This document shows positions 21,209 to 28,571 of a stretch of 34,757 nucleotides of DNA, piece by piece. The stretch is from Chryseobacterium gleum (lineage in GTDB: Bacteria > Bacteroidota > Bacteroidia > Flavobacteriales_D > Sanyastnellaceae): assembly GCA_945878635.1 (NCBI GenBank), contig CAMCTV010000011.1, forward strand, positions 1-34,757. Reading direction: 5' to 3'. Under the pieces are notes generated by a model, which did no database searches, was not told the origin of the DNA, and saw only the letters and a list, made by a program, of their open reading frames with translations. A program made the translations under genes and the position numbers. Each line of letters starts with the position of its first letter. The first letter of the stretch is position 1.

Positions 21209-21526
21209 ATGAAAAAGATTTTTGCATTCGTAGCCTTCATGATTTTGATGGCTGGTGTAGCTTCTGCTCAAACGCAAAACGCTGCCGCTAATACCAATAC
21301 TGAGAAGAAAGAACAAGTTATCAAAGAGAAAAGCTCTTGCGGTAAAGCAGAGAATGGTAAAGCTTGTTGTTCAAAGGACAAAGGAGTTACTGGTTCAACT
21401 GAAAAAGCAGCTTGCTGCTCCAAAGGTGAGAAAAAAGAAGGTGCTGCTTGTTGCTCTAAAGACCAAAAGAAGGAAGGTGGTAAGTGTTCTGGAGATGGCA
21501 AAAAAGAAGAAACTCCAAAGCCCTAA
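21209..21526 (+). CDS. Secreted Cys/Lys-rich repeat protein
   Basis: A 105-aa protein with a clear signal peptide (residues 1-20, ending ASAQ). The mature part is nearly all Lys, Glu, Gly, Ala and Cys. It contains three ACCSK units (ACCSKDKG, ACCSKGEK, ACCSKDQK) and two single Cys (SCGK and KCSG), eight Cys in all, with spacers rich in KKE. The three units are also similar at DNA level, suggesting local duplication. Codons are biased to GCT, GGT, AAA and GAA, as in highly expressed genes. A metal-binding or thiol-buffer role is possible, but I do not recognise the family. It has its own promoter and a strong terminator. Confidence 0.75.
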   Translation: MKKIFAFVAFMILMAGVASAQTQNAAANTNTEKKEQVIKEKSSCGKAENGKACCSKDKGVTGSTEKAACCSKGEKKEGAACCSKDQKKEGGKCSGDGKKEETPKP

Positions 21527-21721: not shown

Positions 21722-22411
21722 CTAAAAACCAAAACCAATGTTCAGGTCGCTTTCCACTTGTTCAATGCCTGGATCTTTTCCTTGACTATCCAAGTATTTC
21801 AAAGCAAACTGGGCAATGTCATTTCGGTTCCATTGGTCCATGTTACAATCAAAAATCTGAAGCAAAGCTTTGAGATCTTTTTGCGACAACTTGGCTCTTT
21901 TCTCTGAATCGTAAAGAAACACGGAAATGACCGCCAAGGAGGCCAATGATGGTTTGGTCAAGAGATCCTTCAGAGAAGGATCCGCATCAATCAAACTCCA
22001 AATGGCGGGCAGCAATGAAGTAGATTGGGTGTTGCTTTGGTATTTTTCTACAGCATTTTTAAGACAAATGCGCAAATCATGTTCATCCCAAGGTTTGGCC
22101 ACATAGCGGTAAATCTCACCTTTGTTAATGGCATTGACAACGGCTTCGATATCCGCATAGCCCGTCACCAAAATGCGCACCGATCGAGGGAAATCCGGAA
22201 GAATCATTTCAAAAAATTCAACCCCCGAGATATCAGGCATTTTCTGATCGGACAAAATGACCGGAACCTCATTTTGGTTCAGGTACTCCACCGCTTCACG
22301 TGCAGATGTGGTGGTAAAGACCTCGTATTCTCTTCTGAATAAAGCTTTAAAAGCTACCAGGTTGTTTTCCTCATCGTCTAGGTAGAGGATTTTAATTTTT
22401 TCTTCGCTCAT
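21722..22411 (-). CDS. Response regulator with receiver domain and novel C-terminal region
   Basis: A 229-aa protein. Residues 1-125 form a receiver: acidic pair LDDE (Asp12, Asp13), phosphorylation site Asp55 in ILSDQKMPD, the Thr in LVTGYAD, and the conserved Lys in YVAKPWDE. The receiver resembles the RpfG/HD-GYP group in sequence, but no HD-GYP domain follows. Residues about 130-229 (helical, ALLQIFDCNMDQW region) match no DNA-binding or output domain I recognise. It overlaps the kinase gene by 4 bases (ATGA) and is the last gene of the ThiF-GNAT-kinase-regulator operon. It is probably phosphorylated by the neighbouring kinase. Confidence 0.85.
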   Translation of the reverse strand: MSEEKIKILYLDDEENNLVAFKALFRREYEVFTTTSAREAVEYLNQNEVPVILSDQKMPDISGVEFFEMILPDFPRSVRILVTGYADIEAVVNAINKGEIYRYVAKPWDEHDLRICLKNAVEKYQSNTQSTSLLPAIWSLIDADPSLKDLLTKPSLASLAVISVFLYDSEKRAKLSQKDLKALLQIFDCNMDQWNRNDIAQFALKYLDSQGKDPGIEQVESDLNIGFGF

Positions 22412-24456
22412 AGGTTTGAATGATTAGCGTTGATGGGCAATAAAATGGTAAAGCTAGTTCCTTTGTTCCACTCACTATCGATTTGAATTTCACCGCCGTG
22501 TTCTTGAACAATTCCCAAGACAATAGAAAGGCCAAGTCCCGTTCCCTCACCTACTTGTTTGGTGGTGAAGAAAGGATCAAATATTTTCTTTCTAACCTCC
22601 TCTTTCATTCCTGTTCCATTGTCTTTTACAACAATTTTAATGAAATCATTTTCTTTGCTAGTGTTTACCTCCACCGTACGTTCCTCAATAGATCTTCCCT
22701 CCATCTTGGTAGCATGCACGGCGTTAGAGATGAGGTTCATCAACACTTGATTCAATTTTCCTGGAAAGCAATGGATTTGCGGCAATGACGTATCCAAATG
22801 CGTAGATAAAGTTACTTCTTTTGACGTGATGTTTTTCATCACCATAAGTGTAGAGGTGATGCATTCATTGACATCGGCCAACACCAGTGCATCACGGTCC
22901 ATTCTTGAAAAGACGCGCAAAGAACGCACGATATCTGCTGTGCGTTTGGAACCCTCATCGATTCCTTGAAGAAGTTGATAGATTTCCTTTTGAAGGTAGT
23001 CGACATCAAGTTCTTTGTATTTCTGTTGAAGCGCGTTCCATTTGGATTGCAGGTCATCCATGGGCAAGCTTGGATTGATCTGAGAAATAATCTCAATCAG
23101 TTCATCCACATCGCGCTTGAGGGGTTGCACGTTGGAGCGAACAAAGTTGACCGGGTTATTGATCTCATGGGCGATACCGGCTGTCATTTGACCCAGGGAG
23201 GCCAATTTCTCGGACTCCACCAATTGTTTTTGCGTCAATTGGAGATTGGCCAATGTTTTTTCTAGATCATGGTTGGTAGAAGTAATCTCTCTTGTTCTAG
23301 CCTCTACTTCTTTTTCAAGGATCGCATTTTGTTCATGAATAAGGCGTTGGTTTTCTTCCATCATAAGGATGGCATGGGCTTGAGACGCTTCCTTTTCCCG
23401 CTTCAAGATATTAATCCTATCCGCCAAAGCGAGGGAGAGGAGGATGGCTTCGATCATTACACCTACAGGTAAAGAATATTTCGTAACACTCGAATAAGTA
23501 ATTACTCCGTAATCTTTTAATGCAAATACAGTGACACCAATCAAAAAAGTTGAAAAAGCAACCATAAAATAGATTGCAGGTCTATAACCTTTTTTCATAG
23601 CGTTATAGGCAGCTATCAATAATAAAATAGAAAGACTCGCATTGGCATTAATAAGATTAAAACTAAAATCGTTAAAATCCAATAATAAAAAGAGAAAAAC
23701 CAAAAGATAGGAGCAAATTGACAAAATAGAAATCCTGTAAATCCAAATTGAGTACTTCTTAATCGACAGAAATTCTAAAGCAAAATATATGGTAATTAAA
23801 CCGCTCATTGAACCAAAAAACAAAACCCACTCGCTTTTGTAACGCAAAATATCTTTTAAAAAAAGTTCAAGTTGACCGAAAAGACACAACTGTGTTAAGA
23901 GGAGAATTAATACAAAAAAGACATAGATTAAATAAATCAAATCTTTTGTGCTTAAGTATATAAAAACATTATACAACAAAACAGATAACATAATGCCAAT
24001 AAAAAAGAAAAAGAAATTTTCTATTTCGTTGTTATCCTTCTTTATTTGATCAATCTTTTTAAATGAAAAGGGTGCAATTATTGGCGTTTTAGACTTTATT
24101 CTGATCAATAAGGAGTCTACCCCCATTTCATTTATTAAAGTTTGAGAATATCCGAGATTACTCGATTTTAATAGCGTTAAATGACCATAGTCTAAAGCAA
24201 TAAAATCTACTGAATCTAACAAAGGATTCTCTACTGATATTGCAAACTGAGAGTTGTATAACTCAGTAACTAAAAAATATCTTGATTTATTACTCAATCC
24301 CAAATTAACAAAGTGATTCGATAAAGCTTGGAATGCTTTGCAATCCTTAATTATTTCTTTTGGCAAATTCTCTTCACCATGATAAACTGCAATTGATTGA
24401 GAATGTACATATCCTGATAACAAAATCAAAAAAAATAAGATTAATCTTTGTTTCAT
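22408..24456 (-). CDS. 7TMR-DISM-type sensor histidine kinase
   Basis: A 682-aa membrane kinase. Signal peptide to about residue 20, then a ~120-residue extracytoplasmic domain of the 7TMR-DISMED2 type, then seven hydrophobic helices (residues ~145-350), a coiled-coil linker (EREAxxxxHAILMMEEN region), and HisKA with the phosphorylated His near residue 430 in AGIAHEINNPVNF. The ATPase domain has LMNLISNAVHAT (N box), VKDNGTGM (G1) and GEGTGLGLSIV (G2). 7TMR-DISM proteins sense extracellular ligands, often unknown. It overlaps its neighbours on both sides by four bases. The sensor half (from about 23,480 up to 24,456) is AT-rich, the kinase half is not, suggesting mosaic origin. Confidence 0.92.
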   Translation of the reverse strand: MKQRLILFFLILLSGYVHSQSIAVYHGEENLPKEIIKDCKAFQALSNHFVNLGLSNKSRYFLVTELYNSQFAISVENPLLDSVDFIALDYGHLTLLKSSNLGYSQTLINEMGVDSLLIRIKSKTPIIAPFSFKKIDQIKKDNNEIENFFFFFIGIMLSVLLYNVFIYLSTKDLIYLIYVFFVLILLLTQLCLFGQLELFLKDILRYKSEWVLFFGSMSGLITIYFALEFLSIKKYSIWIYRISILSICSYLLVFLFLLLDFNDFSFNLINANASLSILLLIAAYNAMKKGYRPAIYFMVAFSTFLIGVTVFALKDYGVITYSSVTKYSLPVGVMIEAILLSLALADRINILKREKEASQAHAILMMEENQRLIHEQNAILEKEVEARTREITSTNHDLEKTLANLQLTQKQLVESEKLASLGQMTAGIAHEINNPVNFVRSNVQPLKRDVDELIEIISQINPSLPMDDLQSKWNALQQKYKELDVDYLQKEIYQLLQGIDEGSKRTADIVRSLRVFSRMDRDALVLADVNECITSTLMVMKNITSKEVTLSTHLDTSLPQIHCFPGKLNQVLMNLISNAVHATKMEGRSIEERTVEVNTSKENDFIKIVVKDNGTGMKEEVRKKIFDPFFTTKQVGEGTGLGLSIVLGIVQEHGGEIQIDSEWNKGTSFTILLPINANHSNL

Positions 24457-25148
24457 ATCTCGAAATGAATTTTCAAATTCTTACCTCTATCATTGAATTC
24501 TTGAGAAAAAACTTTACTTGTCCTTAAATTTATTATTTTCTCTTGCTCTTCCTCTTTTGCATTGGATAAATCAAACTTATCTTGAAGAAAATTGATTGTA
24601 CTCATCCACCGTTCATCTGGAAATGGAAATTTCCCCTTTTGTCCAAGACTTTCAAAAGCTCTAAAACCGTAGTCATCTGCAAATCTCGAAACAAAAGGAG
24701 AGCAGAAGGTAAATACACTTTTAGGAGGTAAAAATGCTGCTGCCGCAATTGAAGTTCTTATTATATGCTCACTTCCAAGTCCCAATCCTGCCACTGCCCT
24801 AGAGTTCCATAAACCAGCTATCTCAACTATTCCGCCATTATCTCTAGCCCAATCATCAACGACAACATATATTTTGGGCTCTAATTGACTTAAAAAAGAC
24901 TGCAGTGGTAGAGGTTCTATTCCATCCCAAATGTGAAGTCTAGCTCCACCGAAGCAAATACTTCTATCTAATGACTCTGCAACAAGCAAATAAACCGAAT
25001 CCAAACTTCTCCAATAATCGTAACCTTTTGAAAGCGAAACCCCATTCAACAACAATACTTCTTCATGACCATGAATGTATTTCGCTACAGTATCTTGATC
25101 GTCTGTTGCCTTTAAAAATCTCAATCTAACCTCATTTATATCTGACAA
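24453..25148 (-). CDS. GNAT/N-acyltransferase-like protein (LuxI/FeeM-like fold suspected)
   Basis: A 231-aa cytoplasmic protein, Trp/Asp/Gly-rich in its N-half. The segment AGLGLGSEHIIRTSIAAAA (residues 120-138) resembles the acyl-CoA/ACP-binding glycine loop of the GNAT superfamily. Upstream WNSRAVAG and a strand with EIAGL, and downstream CSPFVSRFADDYGFR and FPFPDERW, resemble the N-acyl amino acid synthase (FeeM)/acyltransferase group that shares its fold with acyl-homoserine lactone synthases. I cannot identify the acyl donor or acceptor. Its start is 3 bases after the ThiF gene and its stop overlaps the kinase gene by ATGA, so it is translated with both. The fold call is moderate; the function is inference. 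Confidence 0.6.
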   Translation of the reverse strand: MSDINEVRLRFLKATDDQDTVAKYIHGHEEVLLLNGVSLSKGYDYWRSLDSVYLLVAESLDRSICFGGARLHIWDGIEPLPLQSFLSQLEPKIYVVVDDWARDNGGIVEIAGLWNSRAVAGLGLGSEHIIRTSIAAAAFLPPKSVFTFCSPFVSRFADDYGFRAFESLGQKGKFPFPDERWMSTINFLQDKFDLSNAKEEEQEKIINLRTSKVFSQEFNDRGKNLKIHFEI

Positions 25149-25151
25149 AGT

Positions 25152-26171
25152 CTATAGATGTTTAAGGTTATCGCAATTTATATATGCACGTTGACTCATG
25201 AGCTCTTCCCCAAGCAAAATTCTTCTTACCACATTTGCCGTATTTCCCGCTCCACTAACAACGTCCTCAGCCAGTTGAGGCCAAGAACTTATTGACTTTC
25301 CTATTTCAGTGAACGAATAAATTGATCGATCTGAGGCATTACCAATCTCACAAAATTCAGCTATAATTCTCCCGACATTCAACTTCAACTCTTCTTCTGA
25401 ATAATCAACGAAATTCAGCAAATAAGAAGAGTATTCCTTTTCCAAGGAATAATTCTCAATATCCAACATCCCTCTATCACTAGTATGCATTACCAATGGA
25501 ATGCTATTCCGTTTCGCATATTGACGCAATAAAATCTTAATTCTTAAAGAATCGCATTCATCAATTACTAAATCTAAATCACTGGCAGATTTACCGAAAA
25601 AACTTTCTGCGTTAACTTCGTTGATTCCTTCATTAAAAATTTCAACATCAATAAATGGATTTGACTCTTTAATCCACCTATATACCAATTCTATCTTACT
25701 TTTTCCGATATCAAACACACCCCAGTCAATTCTATTGGTATTTGACAAGTCCAAAGTGTCATAATCTGCGATTTTAACTTTTCCACAGATTCCCTCCATA
25801 ACTATCGTTTTAACTATTGAACACCCAACTGATAGTCCAACAACTCCGACAGTTTTTGCCAGTAATTCTCCCTGTTCGGACGAATTAATCTTGTAATTGT
25901 TCCGTGTGTACTTAATGGCGTTAAAGATGTCCTTTCCATGCGTTATTAAAACGGAATTTCGCCATGGATAATACACAAAAACTGAGGATGTTGGAACATT
26001 GTGATTTTCAATTTGTCTCCTATCACCTCCCCTGTGTAATGATCCAAGAGTTGGGTTACTCTGCAATTCCTTTATTTCTTGTTCTATCAAACAATTAATA
26101 GAGACATTCACTCCTGAGCCAGAAAGAAACGAAATGGCCTCATCAAAATCTAAAAAAACAATCTCTTCCAT
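25152..26171 (-). CDS. ThiF/E1-like adenylyltransferase (Rv1355c-like ThiF half)
   Basis: A 339-aa protein of the ThiF/MoeB/HesA family, which adenylates the C-terminus of a carrier protein or a small molecule. An ~105-residue N-terminal region is followed by the Rossmann part: VGVVGLSVGCSIVK (Gly112-Gly116, the GxxxG nucleotide loop), KIADYDTLDLSNTNR (Asp136/Asp138 and Arg147), and VIDECDSLRIK. No CxxC zinc motifs and no obvious catalytic cysteine are seen, which argues against a canonical MoeB/E1. The C-terminal DVVSGAGNTANVVRR pattern resembles the linker end of Rv1355c-type proteins, which from memory carry a second nitroreductase-like domain; none is present here. It is the first gene of the sensor operon. 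Confidence 0.75.
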   Translation of the reverse strand: MEEIVFLDFDEAISFLSGSGVNVSINCLIEQEIKELQSNPTLGSLHRGGDRRQIENHNVPTSSVFVYYPWRNSVLITHGKDIFNAIKYTRNNYKINSSEQGELLAKTVGVVGLSVGCSIVKTIVMEGICGKVKIADYDTLDLSNTNRIDWGVFDIGKSKIELVYRWIKESNPFIDVEIFNEGINEVNAESFFGKSASDLDLVIDECDSLRIKILLRQYAKRNSIPLVMHTSDRGMLDIENYSLEKEYSSYLLNFVDYSEEELKLNVGRIIAEFCEIGNASDRSIYSFTEIGKSISSWPQLAEDVVSGAGNTANVVRRILLGEELMSQRAYINCDNLKHL

Positions 26172-26189
26172 TCAATGGCTAAACTAGCT

Positions 26190-26243
26190 AACCATTAACT
26201 AAATCACACCTTAAGTAATATTTGATATCAACGTTAAATGGTT
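26190..26243. repeat. Inverted half-sites in the ThiF/unknown-gene divergent region
   Basis: AACCATT at 26190-26196 and its exact complement AATGGTT at 26237-26243 are 40 bases apart. A third AATGG at 26174-26178 faces the first in an imperfect palindrome. This is placed symmetrically between the two divergent genes, as expected for a shared operator; short and unproven. Confidence 0.3.
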
Positions 26244-26279
26244 CATTTCATTATATTTACTATTCTTAAACTCCACCGT

Positions 26280-27383
26280 ATGAAAAATAGAAAAACACTT
26301 GGAAAGGATTTTTCAAAAATTGTCTTTCCTACTTGGGATGAAGTAGTGTATTCATTTCTTGGTCAAAATCTGAACAATGACCCAATAGCTAGTTCAGAGT
26401 ACTTTATAACTTTCTTCGATAAAATCGATAAAATCAGAAATATCGGATTTGGAAACCACATTGCAGAAACTATGATGCTCGCAGTAGATGCCAGAGCATT
26501 GTCTTCTCCAGATGTTTCTAAGCAAGAAATTTGTGATTTATTGAAAAAATCAATGAATGAAATCAATGAATTCTTTTCTGTTTTTGAACTTACATCTGGA
26601 AATTTCATTGAGGTAGATTCCACCATTGAGAATAAACTTGGAGTCAAGCCAGAGTATTTTTCAATTCCCAATCTTTTTGCATTAAATCCGGATATTCAGT
26701 TCTATCATAAGGCGGATGTTTGTCAGGTAATAAGATGGGCTGGAATCGCATATGCCGTTCTTGGACTCCCAAATTTTAAAATTGACAACTTCAGCGACTA
26801 TTACAAAATCTCTTTCAGGGTTCCAACAAATCTAAGTTCTCATGAATCCTTGAGATCAAAGAACTTTGTCACTTTAGAAAAAAAATGCTTTCTTTTTTGC
26901 GACACGCCATCGCAAGCGCTGAAATTCCCTAAATATCATTTCGATAGATGGAGTATTTATGACGCCGAAAACTTTACTCATGTTCAACCCCTTTTCATTT
27001 CAACACCCGATCAAACAGATAAACTCAACTCGCTTGCTTATCTTATGAATGCATTTCTACTAGATATTAATCCTAAGTATTTACTCATGTTGAATCAAAA
27101 AAGATTCACTGATAGAAACAAAGAAGTTTCCAATAACATTAATGCAAAGATTGAACACCATTTTGGTATTTCTAACTATTTCTCAGAAAATCAAATAGCA
27201 GATTCATTTGCAAAAACTATAAGAAATAAAGTTCATAGCATGTCATTAAAATGGGACTTTATAGATGAGGCTCATCCGATTAATTCAGATCAACAAGCCC
27301 TCGAAACGTGCACTAGATTTGGTTTGACCCCCATCCCATCTACAATCGAAAACTTAATTTATAGTTGCATCACATTCGAATAA
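26280..27383 (+). CDS. Unrecognised protein, divergent from the ThiF operon
   Basis: About 368 aa from the ATG at 26280; a frame from 26238 would add 14 hydrophobic residues, but MKNRKTLG is the more natural start and -7-like TATATTTA (26252-26259) lies before it. Predicted soluble, alpha/beta. The region of residues 140-200 (ADVCQVIRWAGIAYAVLG, then YYKISFRVP) has a PAS-like feel, but this is weak. FTDRNKEV (near residue 285) and FAKTIRNKVHS (near residue 325) are readable landmarks. No known DNA-binding or catalytic motif was found. Its AT-rich composition matches the neighbouring operon, so the two probably travelled together. It ends at a strong terminator. A regulator or partner of the divergent operon is possible; I cannot assign a function. 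Confidence 0.55.
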   Translation: MKNRKTLGKDFSKIVFPTWDEVVYSFLGQNLNNDPIASSEYFITFFDKIDKIRNIGFGNHIAETMMLAVDARALSSPDVSKQEICDLLKKSMNEINEFFSVFELTSGNFIEVDSTIENKLGVKPEYFSIPNLFALNPDIQFYHKADVCQVIRWAGIAYAVLGLPNFKIDNFSDYYKISFRVPTNLSSHESLRSKNFVTLEKKCFLFCDTPSQALKFPKYHFDRWSIYDAENFTHVQPLFISTPDQTDKLNSLAYLMNAFLLDINPKYLLMLNQKRFTDRNKEVSNNINAKIEHHFGISNYFSENQIADSFAKTIRNKVHSMSLKWDFIDEAHPINSDQQALETCTRFGLTPIPSTIENLIYSCITFE

Positions 27384-27406
27384 AATGCATCCCTTCGAAA
27401 ATTTCG

Positions 27407-27431
27407 AAAACCAGCTCCGGCTGGTTTTTTT
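27407..27431 (+). terminator. Intrinsic terminator after the divergent unknown gene
   Basis: Nine-base-pair stem AAAACCAGC/GCTGGTTTT with a 4-base loop, then a seven-T run, starting 24 bases after the stop codon. It separates the unknown gene from the XRE gene. Confidence 0.85.
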
Positions 27432-27436
27432 GTGCC

Positions 27437-27444
27437 CATGTTTG
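27437..27444 (+). promoter_or_regulatory. Candidate -7 box of the XRE regulator gene
   Basis: CATGTTTG, one mismatch from TAnnTTTG, 4 bases before the ATG at 27449 and immediately after the terminator T-run. No -33 element identified. Confidence 0.35.
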
Positions 27445-27448
27445 TCTC

Positions 27449-27895
27449 ATGAATAAAACAACCATCAAAAACAACAAAAAATCCAAAATCCCTAAAAACA
27501 TGATCAGATATCCTAAAATCAGAGAATTCAGAATTCTTCACGATCTCAAACAAGAATTCATCGCAGAAAGACTCGGCATCTCTCAACCTGAATATTCCCG
27601 CCTCGAATGCGGTTTCAGAAAAGCCCGACTCGAAGACTTTAAAACACTTGCCAAAATCTACGATGTGCACATCAATATCCTAATGGTCCGCGACCAAGAA
27701 TCCGTATACGACCGCCCCAAAAAACGCCCCATCTCTCCTTCCATCCTCGCCGATGAACAAATCATGAGCCTGCTGGATCAACACGCACAAATACTATCCT
27801 TCCTCAAACAATCCAATATAGAATCCCAACAAATCATCCAAAAACTCATTCCCTTTCAACCCACCAACCTTCAATCCCCAAGTTCCAACCTCTAA
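27449..27895 (+). CDS. XRE-family transcriptional regulator
   Basis: About 148 aa from the ATG at 27449; a longer frame from 27365 would run through the upstream terminator. The alternative ATG at 27500 would give MIRYPKIREF. An HTH domain covers roughly residues 22-72 (IREFRILHDLKQEFIAERLG, then ISQPEYSRLECG and LAKIYDVHINIL), of the XRE/Cro type. The C-terminal part is helical and Gln/Ser-rich (ILSFLKQSNIESQQI) and may dimerise. Codons end in C far more often than in the AT-rich genes to its left, so it does not share their origin. Its targets are unknown; the neighbouring receiver-like gene is a natural candidate. Confidence 0.85.
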   Translation: MNKTTIKNNKKSKIPKNMIRYPKIREFRILHDLKQEFIAERLGISQPEYSRLECGFRKARLEDFKTLAKIYDVHINILMVRDQESVYDRPKKRPISPSILADEQIMSLLDQHAQILSFLKQSNIESQQIIQKLIPFQPTNLQSPSSNL

Positions 27896-28103: not shown

Positions 28104-28571
28104 ATGAAAACAAGCAACAACTACAAAGTAATGGTCCTCTCCACCAACGCTACTTTTACAAACGATGTAAAAGGCGCTTTAAACCAAAACTTTGACGTAC
28201 TTGAAGTACACTCTACCCAAGCTGCATTAGACGCTCTTCTACCTGAACAAGTTCAAGTAGTTGTTGTAGATCAAATGCTTGACCAAGTTACCGGAGAAAA
28301 CTTCCTCTCCACCCTTAAACTTCAGTTCCCTCAAGTGAAAAGTGTTTTCGTAGTTCAAAACAGCGCAGACCTTAACTGGGAATCTTTGGTAAACAATGCC
28401 AATCCATTCCGTGTAGTTTCTGTTCCTGTTAACCTTACCACCTTGGCCAAACACGTAACTGATGCTGCCAACCAATACAATAAAGAATTTGAATGTGAGC
28501 AAAACCTTGAGCAACTGAACCGCCAAAATCAACAAATGCAGTTCCTTTTAACGCAAAGCTTGCTCTCTTAA
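28104..28571 (+). CDS. Degenerate (pseudo-)receiver protein
   Basis: A 155-aa protein shaped like a receiver: strand-helix alternation with Asp56 in VVVVDQML at the phosphorylation position. The acidic pair is missing (VLSTNATF in place of Asp-Asp) and the conserved Lys near the end is replaced (SVPVNL where KP is expected), so normal Mg-dependent phosphorylation is unlikely. A Gln/Asn-rich helical tail (residues 125-150, EQLNRQNQQMQ) suggests coiled-coil contacts. Codon choice (GTA, CAA, AAC, CTT, GAA) is biased as in highly expressed genes. No kinase neighbours it. Function unknown; it may act by protein-protein contacts. Confidence 0.7.
   Translation: MKTSNNYKVMVLSTNATFTNDVKGALNQNFDVLEVHSTQAALDALLPEQVQVVVVDQMLDQVTGENFLSTLKLQFPQVKSVFVVQNSADLNWESLVNNANPFRVVSVPVNLTTLAKHVTDAANQYNKEFECEQNLEQLNRQNQQMQFLLTQSLLS

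Follow-up and report, generated by a model that had tools for sequence, protein, structure and literature searches.

Does an operon that joins two biosynthetic enzymes to a membrane histidine kinase make the very compound that its kinase senses? The question is raised by a locus in a Bacteroidota genome assigned to Chryseobacterium gleum (GTDB family Sanyastnellaceae; GenBank assembly GCA_945878635.1). The window, meaning the whole 34,757-nucleotide stretch that was analysed (CAMCTV010000011.1), is contig 11 of an assembly of 2.35 Mb in 170 contigs that is 93% complete. The four genes in question follow one another on the minus strand:

25152-26171, minus strand: ThiF-type cyclase assigned to the Rv1355c/TrzS family and lacking the flavin oxidase portion (339 aa; NCBIfam NF005901, E 6.9e-86)
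24453-25148, minus strand: predicted FeeM/OxzA-like N-acyl amino acid synthase, GNAT-like (231 aa, TTG start; predicted-structure match to FeeM)
22408-24456, minus strand: 7TMR-DISM sensor histidine kinase (682 aa; PF07695, PF00512, PF02518)
21722-22411, minus strand: receiver-domain regulator (229 aa; PF00072, E 2.5e-17)

The ThiF and acyltransferase genes are separated by 3 bp (25149-25151), and the acyltransferase/kinase and kinase/regulator pairs each share a 4-bp ATGA overlap, confirming every open reading frame (ORF) and spacing from which a preliminary description of this DNA had argued for a single operon. That description had also proposed a module that makes or modifies a small signal or lipid and senses it. 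Our results sharpen the enzymatic half of the proposal to the acyl-oxazolone families, and we consider it rather probable that the locus forms a synthase-receptor module complete in itself, whose acyl-oxazolone-type product is sensed by its own 7TMR-DISM kinase; the sensing half is suggested by conserved linkage and by an exchange of enzymes between loci.

The two enzymes and their linkage to a sensor kinase

Pfam recognizes the ThiF protein at the level of PF00899 (E 5.8e-20). The match to the NCBIfam 'Rv1355c family' model NF005901, which aligns residues 53-335 with model positions 55-337, lies about 230 bits above that of any E1, MoeB or ThiF model, with the TcdA model far lower too, and on this basis the window ThiF is placed in the Rv1355c/TrzS cyclase family. 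With no oxidase half to align, it scores 289 bits and so falls short of the 476-bit cut-off set for the whole protein; fused ThiF-oxidase relatives from the same type of operon match over the full length at 708 bits, above that cut-off. Four ATP-site residues (Asn, Arg, Lys and Asp) are invariant across 104 ThiF homologues, the window protein included, and from a ThiF-fold alignment we infer that the invariant Asp corresponds to the residue whose loss left TrzS without cyclisation activity. TrzS is Rv1355c itself, which closes and desaturates the ring of an N-acyl tryptazolone, and the family as a whole catalyses oxazolone ring closure and desaturation (PMC12856293).

Members of this family also occur on plasmids. 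A Streptomyces sp. NBC_01471 plasmid (locus L188) carries an Rv1355c-family ThiF that adjoins a MerR regulator and a GNAT gene with no detectable relationship to the window acyltransferase, with neither kinase nor oxidase alongside. On a Rhodococcus qingshengii plasmid (L189) the family member stands next to TrzA-like and GGDEF genes, repeating the cyclic di-GMP (c-di-GMP) neighbourhood noted for Mycobacterium tuberculosis trzAS, where c-di-GMP genes adjoin the cluster and are the only genes noted near it (PMC12856293).

No Pfam or NCBIfam family was assigned to the acyltransferase. With its AlphaFold model (pLDDT 93.8), the best Foldseek match was FeeM (2g0b, E 1.3e-8), followed by acyl-homoserine lactone synthases, and superposition on FeeM gave a VIA Z of 16.8 over 182 residues (root-mean-square deviation (rmsd) 2.9), with some general GNAT proteins nearly equal in Z over fewer residues. 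FeeM and BjaI are the nearest structures reported for TyzA (PMC10404671). Comparison of profiles with hhalign also related the acyltransferase to the gene adjoining a Rhodococcus Rv1355c gene (E 2.9e-6). The model and the profile match point to a FeeM/OxzA-like N-acyl amino acid synthase, and, by family membership, the acyltransferase and ThiF would together correspond to the known enzyme pair of acyl-oxazolone biosynthesis (OxzAB, TyzACB, TrzAS).

The kinase combines a 7TMR-DISM_7TM domain (PF07695, E 2.2e-34) with HisKA and HATPase_c, the phospho-acceptor His lying in an HEINNP motif. We searched for acyltransferase homologues in whole genomes of the order, the class and a sample of the phylum, found them in 60/245, 85/396 and 14/392 genomes, respectively, and typed the neighbouring genes with profiles built from these loci. 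These counts are approximate, as many of the genomes are metagenome-assembled genomes (MAGs) and the simple ORF-calling script overlooked genes at some loci (L178 and L183, for example, contain ThiF and the kinase, the acyltransferase having been missed). A 7TMR-DISM kinase lies on the same strand, at most two genes away, in 122 of the 126 loci with a called acyltransferase; the exceptions are L036, which ends at a contig edge, and L104, L166 and L167, in which the absence of the kinase is real at the level of ORFs. The homologues thus usually occur with a kinase and not apart from one, the case that the preliminary description had named as refuting the module idea.

The loci span about 24 families, and one (L168) belongs to another class. 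Their commonest form comprises a divergent receiver, ThiF (often fused to the oxidase), the acyltransferase, the kinase, a receiver-HisKA-HATPase hybrid and a small receiver; in a first set of 110 loci, a receiver followed the kinase in 90 and a divergent receiver lay upstream in 70. Because it recurs in more than 100 genomes, this gene order is far beyond chance. A contig search with the window ThiF protein retrieved only a near-identical locus from a Flavobacteriales MAG. Among side observations on the acyltransferase, those of genus g192 in family f62 (L166, L181 and L169) are divergent (E about 1e-55), in loci where gene calling is unsure.

When the order was searched with the sensor alone, copies at the locus scored high and copies elsewhere mostly lower. 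Three of the best unlinked homologues (L192, L193 and L195) were considered as orphan copies of the kinase and rejected: scanned with Pfam, all three share the 7TMR-DISM sensor with the kinase and differ in output, a SpoIIE phosphatase, and all three have housekeeping neighbourhoods. With high-scoring sensors at the locus and SpoIIE proteins as the three scanned copies away from it, the kinase is therefore tied to the acyltransferase.

Exchange of the tailoring enzyme and what the kinase may sense

In eight loci ThiF is absent and another enzyme occupies the place between acyltransferase and kinase, namely an S-adenosylmethionine (SAM)-dependent methyltransferase in six and an ICMT-type membrane methyltransferase in two. 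On the acyltransferase tree, which came from a quick search with single-gene support, the ThiF/methyltransferase exchange requires six changes under parsimony, and two of these fall within clades supported at 99% (L115 with L121; L140 with L162 and L187). For the SAM enzymes, the matches are to general methyltransferase models and UbiE, and ICMT is only in name a family of carboxyl methyltransferases; we take both kinds of enzyme to methylate an N-acyl amino acid at its carboxyl group. An oxazolone ring and a methyl ester would alike leave no free acid, comparable to the lactone of acyl-homoserine lactones, and we read the exchange as different ways of masking that carboxyl group, each of which would yield a neutral signal for the kinase to sense. 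In our view, the retention of a receptor-like kinase through changes of capping chemistry is the strongest hint that it reads the product. Two loci depart from the usual enzyme content: at L150 (genome G660) the kinase directly follows the acyltransferase, with no capping enzyme recognised nearby, and at L109 (G774) two acyltransferases stand in tandem and may supply two products for one kinase.

As we envisage it, with synthesis and capping drawn from family membership, the FeeM-like enzyme would N-acylate an amino acid, most probably one of the aromatic ones, drawing the fatty acyl group from acyl-CoA or acyl-ACP. ThiF would then use ATP to activate the carboxyl group and close the oxazolone ring, giving a product without a free acid, which in many relatives a fused flavin oxidase would go on to desaturate. 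The neutral, lipid-like product would leave the cell or stay in the membrane and be sensed by the 7TMR-DISM kinase encoded on the same mRNA, which would pass phosphate to the downstream receiver protein and to a separate receiver-only protein. Gene order, enzyme families, conserved linkage and the exchange of the tailoring enzyme are direct observations; exact substrate, product, sensing and output are the proposed part of this course of events.

The desaturation step appears to be lacking in the window lineage. The oxidase is present as a ThiF fusion in 56/126 loci and was not found in the window genome or ten relatives by a search that detected three positive controls; with no oxidase found, the product would probably be a saturated oxazolone or an opened or transferred derivative of it. 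We considered the divergent gene upstream of ThiF as the missing oxidase and rejected it, since its predicted fold is PAS plus a LuxR-type helix-turn-helix (HTH) and it also adjoins a full ThiF-oxidase fusion (L047). As the oxidase that would define a full oxazolone cluster is lacking, we file the window locus as oxazolone-like and not as a full member.

Several points weigh against sensing of the locus's own product. The kinase could sense another cue and merely control the pathway. In 13/15 kinase orthologues we found a DISMED2 extracellular domain, a fold usually linked to sugars and not to lipids; the window kinase itself gave no Pfam match to DISMED1 or DISMED2. The methyltransferases of the swap loci may not act on the carboxyl group. 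The correlated pairwise distances of acyltransferase and sensor (rho 0.42, with a permutation maximum of 0.15; 0.29 after removing ThiF) speak for the module, yet joint inheritance alone would lead one to expect them. Oxazolones are unstable and were mainly detected intracellularly (PMC12856293). Finally, a DNA-binding output could be recognised in none of the receivers.

In a rival reading, the kinase and its regulator respond to an outside cue that has nothing to do with the product, such as a sugar or envelope stress, and control an acyl-oxazolone made as a membrane lipid, antioxidant or antimicrobial, the linkage then reflecting regulation and not self-sensing. Besides the frequent DISMED2 domains, it draws on reports that proteobacterial oxazolones are induced by sublethal antibiotics and linked to stress and that N-acyl tyrosines can act as antimicrobials (PMC12856293). 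However, an external cue does not account well for a kinase that stays in place while the tailoring enzyme is replaced by unrelated chemistry; the operon has no receiver with a DNA-binding output that could switch the pathway, and a conserved export or immunity gene was not seen in the neighbourhoods. We regard this reading as unlikely, while giving it real weight.

It is very improbable that the target of ThiF and the acyltransferase is a protein or peptide, in a pathway of the ubiquitin-like type or one resembling that of ribosomally synthesized and post-translationally modified peptides, with the kinase as a passenger. The ThiF fold does give weak matches to models of E1-E2 defence systems (best E 5e-9), but the far stronger Rv1355c match, the resemblance of the acyltransferase to amino acid N-acyl synthases and the lack of any conserved ubiquitin-like, E2 or precursor gene seen alongside argue against it. 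An E1-E2 defence system was likewise rejected, ThiF matching its E1 part only at fold level; PADLOC gave no match for any operon neighbour of ThiF, and an E1-E2 fusion with defence partners was not encountered. That the neighbours stayed together by chance, or were passively inherited in a region that rearranges slowly, is scarcely credible, for although the gene distances correlate as in any co-inherited genes, the block recurs in differing surroundings across families, patchily within the phylum and in another class, which points to selection on the block.

Sensing of the locus's own product by its kinase is thus the account we prefer for the window locus. A wider version would make N-acyl amino acids, capped as oxazolones or methyl esters, the autoinducers of a system widespread in Bacteroidota, with the 7TMR-DISM kinase as receptor and the capping exchanged between lineages to give private signals; we advance it tentatively, as quite possible.

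Divergent genes and other receivers

Three further genes lie on the other side of ThiF:

26238-27383, plus strand: divergent PAS plus LuxR-type HTH regulator-like protein (fold matches of a predicted model)
27365-27895, plus strand: XRE-type HTH protein (PF01381, E 8.9e-10; true start probably downstream of 27365)
28104-28571, plus strand: receiver-only protein (homology to divergent receivers of other loci)

The first of these is listed with 381 aa from 26238, and the next ATG, at 26280, gives 367 aa, near the 368 aa given in the preliminary description. Neither it nor any of nine homologues falls in a Pfam family. Its predicted model (pLDDT 79) shows PAS fold matches at 106-245 and LuxR HTH fold matches at 275-364 (Z 7 to 8), and matches 3clo across both domains (VIA Z 10.4 over 233 residues, rmsd 9.6). 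Among 20 genomes searched, 12 contain the gene, in 13 copies of which 11 are at the locus and two away from it; it is limited to part of the family and absent from most loci. Of the suggestion that this protein is a partner or regulator, the regulator-like character agrees with its predicted fold, whereas a core partnership is not: the gene is accessory. Homologues of the XRE-type gene adjoin the PAS-LuxR gene in eight copies, and one locus (L047, genome G013) has the gene pair twice beside a ThiF-oxidase fusion. We speculate that the PAS-LuxR protein, with the XRE-type gene, might read the same signal a second time, inside the cell.

Outside the genus, the 28104-28571 receiver matches best the divergent receivers found at other loci (E down to 8e-19), and by homology it corresponds to the divergent receiver that is conserved there. 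The operon regulator has a C-terminal extension of about 100 aa of unknown fold where relatives elsewhere have HisKA-HATPase; a phosphotransfer domain was considered and set aside, the extension having no histidine. On its other side, a plus-strand gene at 21209-21526 encodes a secreted, Lys/Glu-rich protein of 105 aa with repeated CCSK motifs, possibly metal-binding, and in the close relatives L037 and L045 an ORF of equal length adjoins the regulator.

Relation to known systems

The describers of the acyl-oxazolone pathway call the physiological role of these compounds a major unresolved question (PMC12856293). A conserved sensor kinase within the operon offers a receptor and a read-out, making that role directly testable in bacteria that are harmless and often cultivable. 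If the product is a signal, Bacteroidota would have a synthase-receptor chemical language of their own, and the enzyme swap predicts new compounds, the N-acyl amino acid methyl esters.

That the arrangement was not known as a described system proved true in part: no description of a kinase linked to oxazolone enzymes was found in the open-access papers searched, whereas the enzyme roles have been described in mycobacteria and proteobacteria. The closest relatives, TrzAS, TyzACB and OxzAB of Mycobacterium, Rhodococcus and Pseudoalteromonas, likewise have a FeeM-like N-acyltransferase next to a ThiF cyclase that belongs to the same family and often forms a fusion with the oxidase (PMC12856293). 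They are described without a kinase, whereas loci of the window type have a 7TMR-DISM kinase and receivers, and the window genome is without the oxidase. The NasY N-acyl tyrosine clusters of other phyla (stieleriacines, thalassotalic and kyonggic acids) combine an N-acyl amino acid synthase with ThiF and a nitroreductase, sometimes with a methyltransferase, and the accessible portion of their description reports no conserved two-component system (PMC12479983).

With respect to layout, the window locus joins a synthase-type enzyme gene to a sensor kinase gene, a linkage present in 122 of 126 loci, and the two may be signal source and receptor. The quorum systems LqsA/LqsS/LqsR, CqsA/CqsS and LuxM/LuxN also have a signal synthase gene next to a membrane kinase and regulator; their synthases, receptors and signals are different. 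RetS and SagS are 7TMR-DISM sensors of the same seven-helix family as the window kinase, but neither is known to be encoded with a signal synthase. The chemistry is thus already known, and what is new is a synthase-kinase-regulator arrangement built on an oxazolone-type synthase, with its linkage conserved across families.

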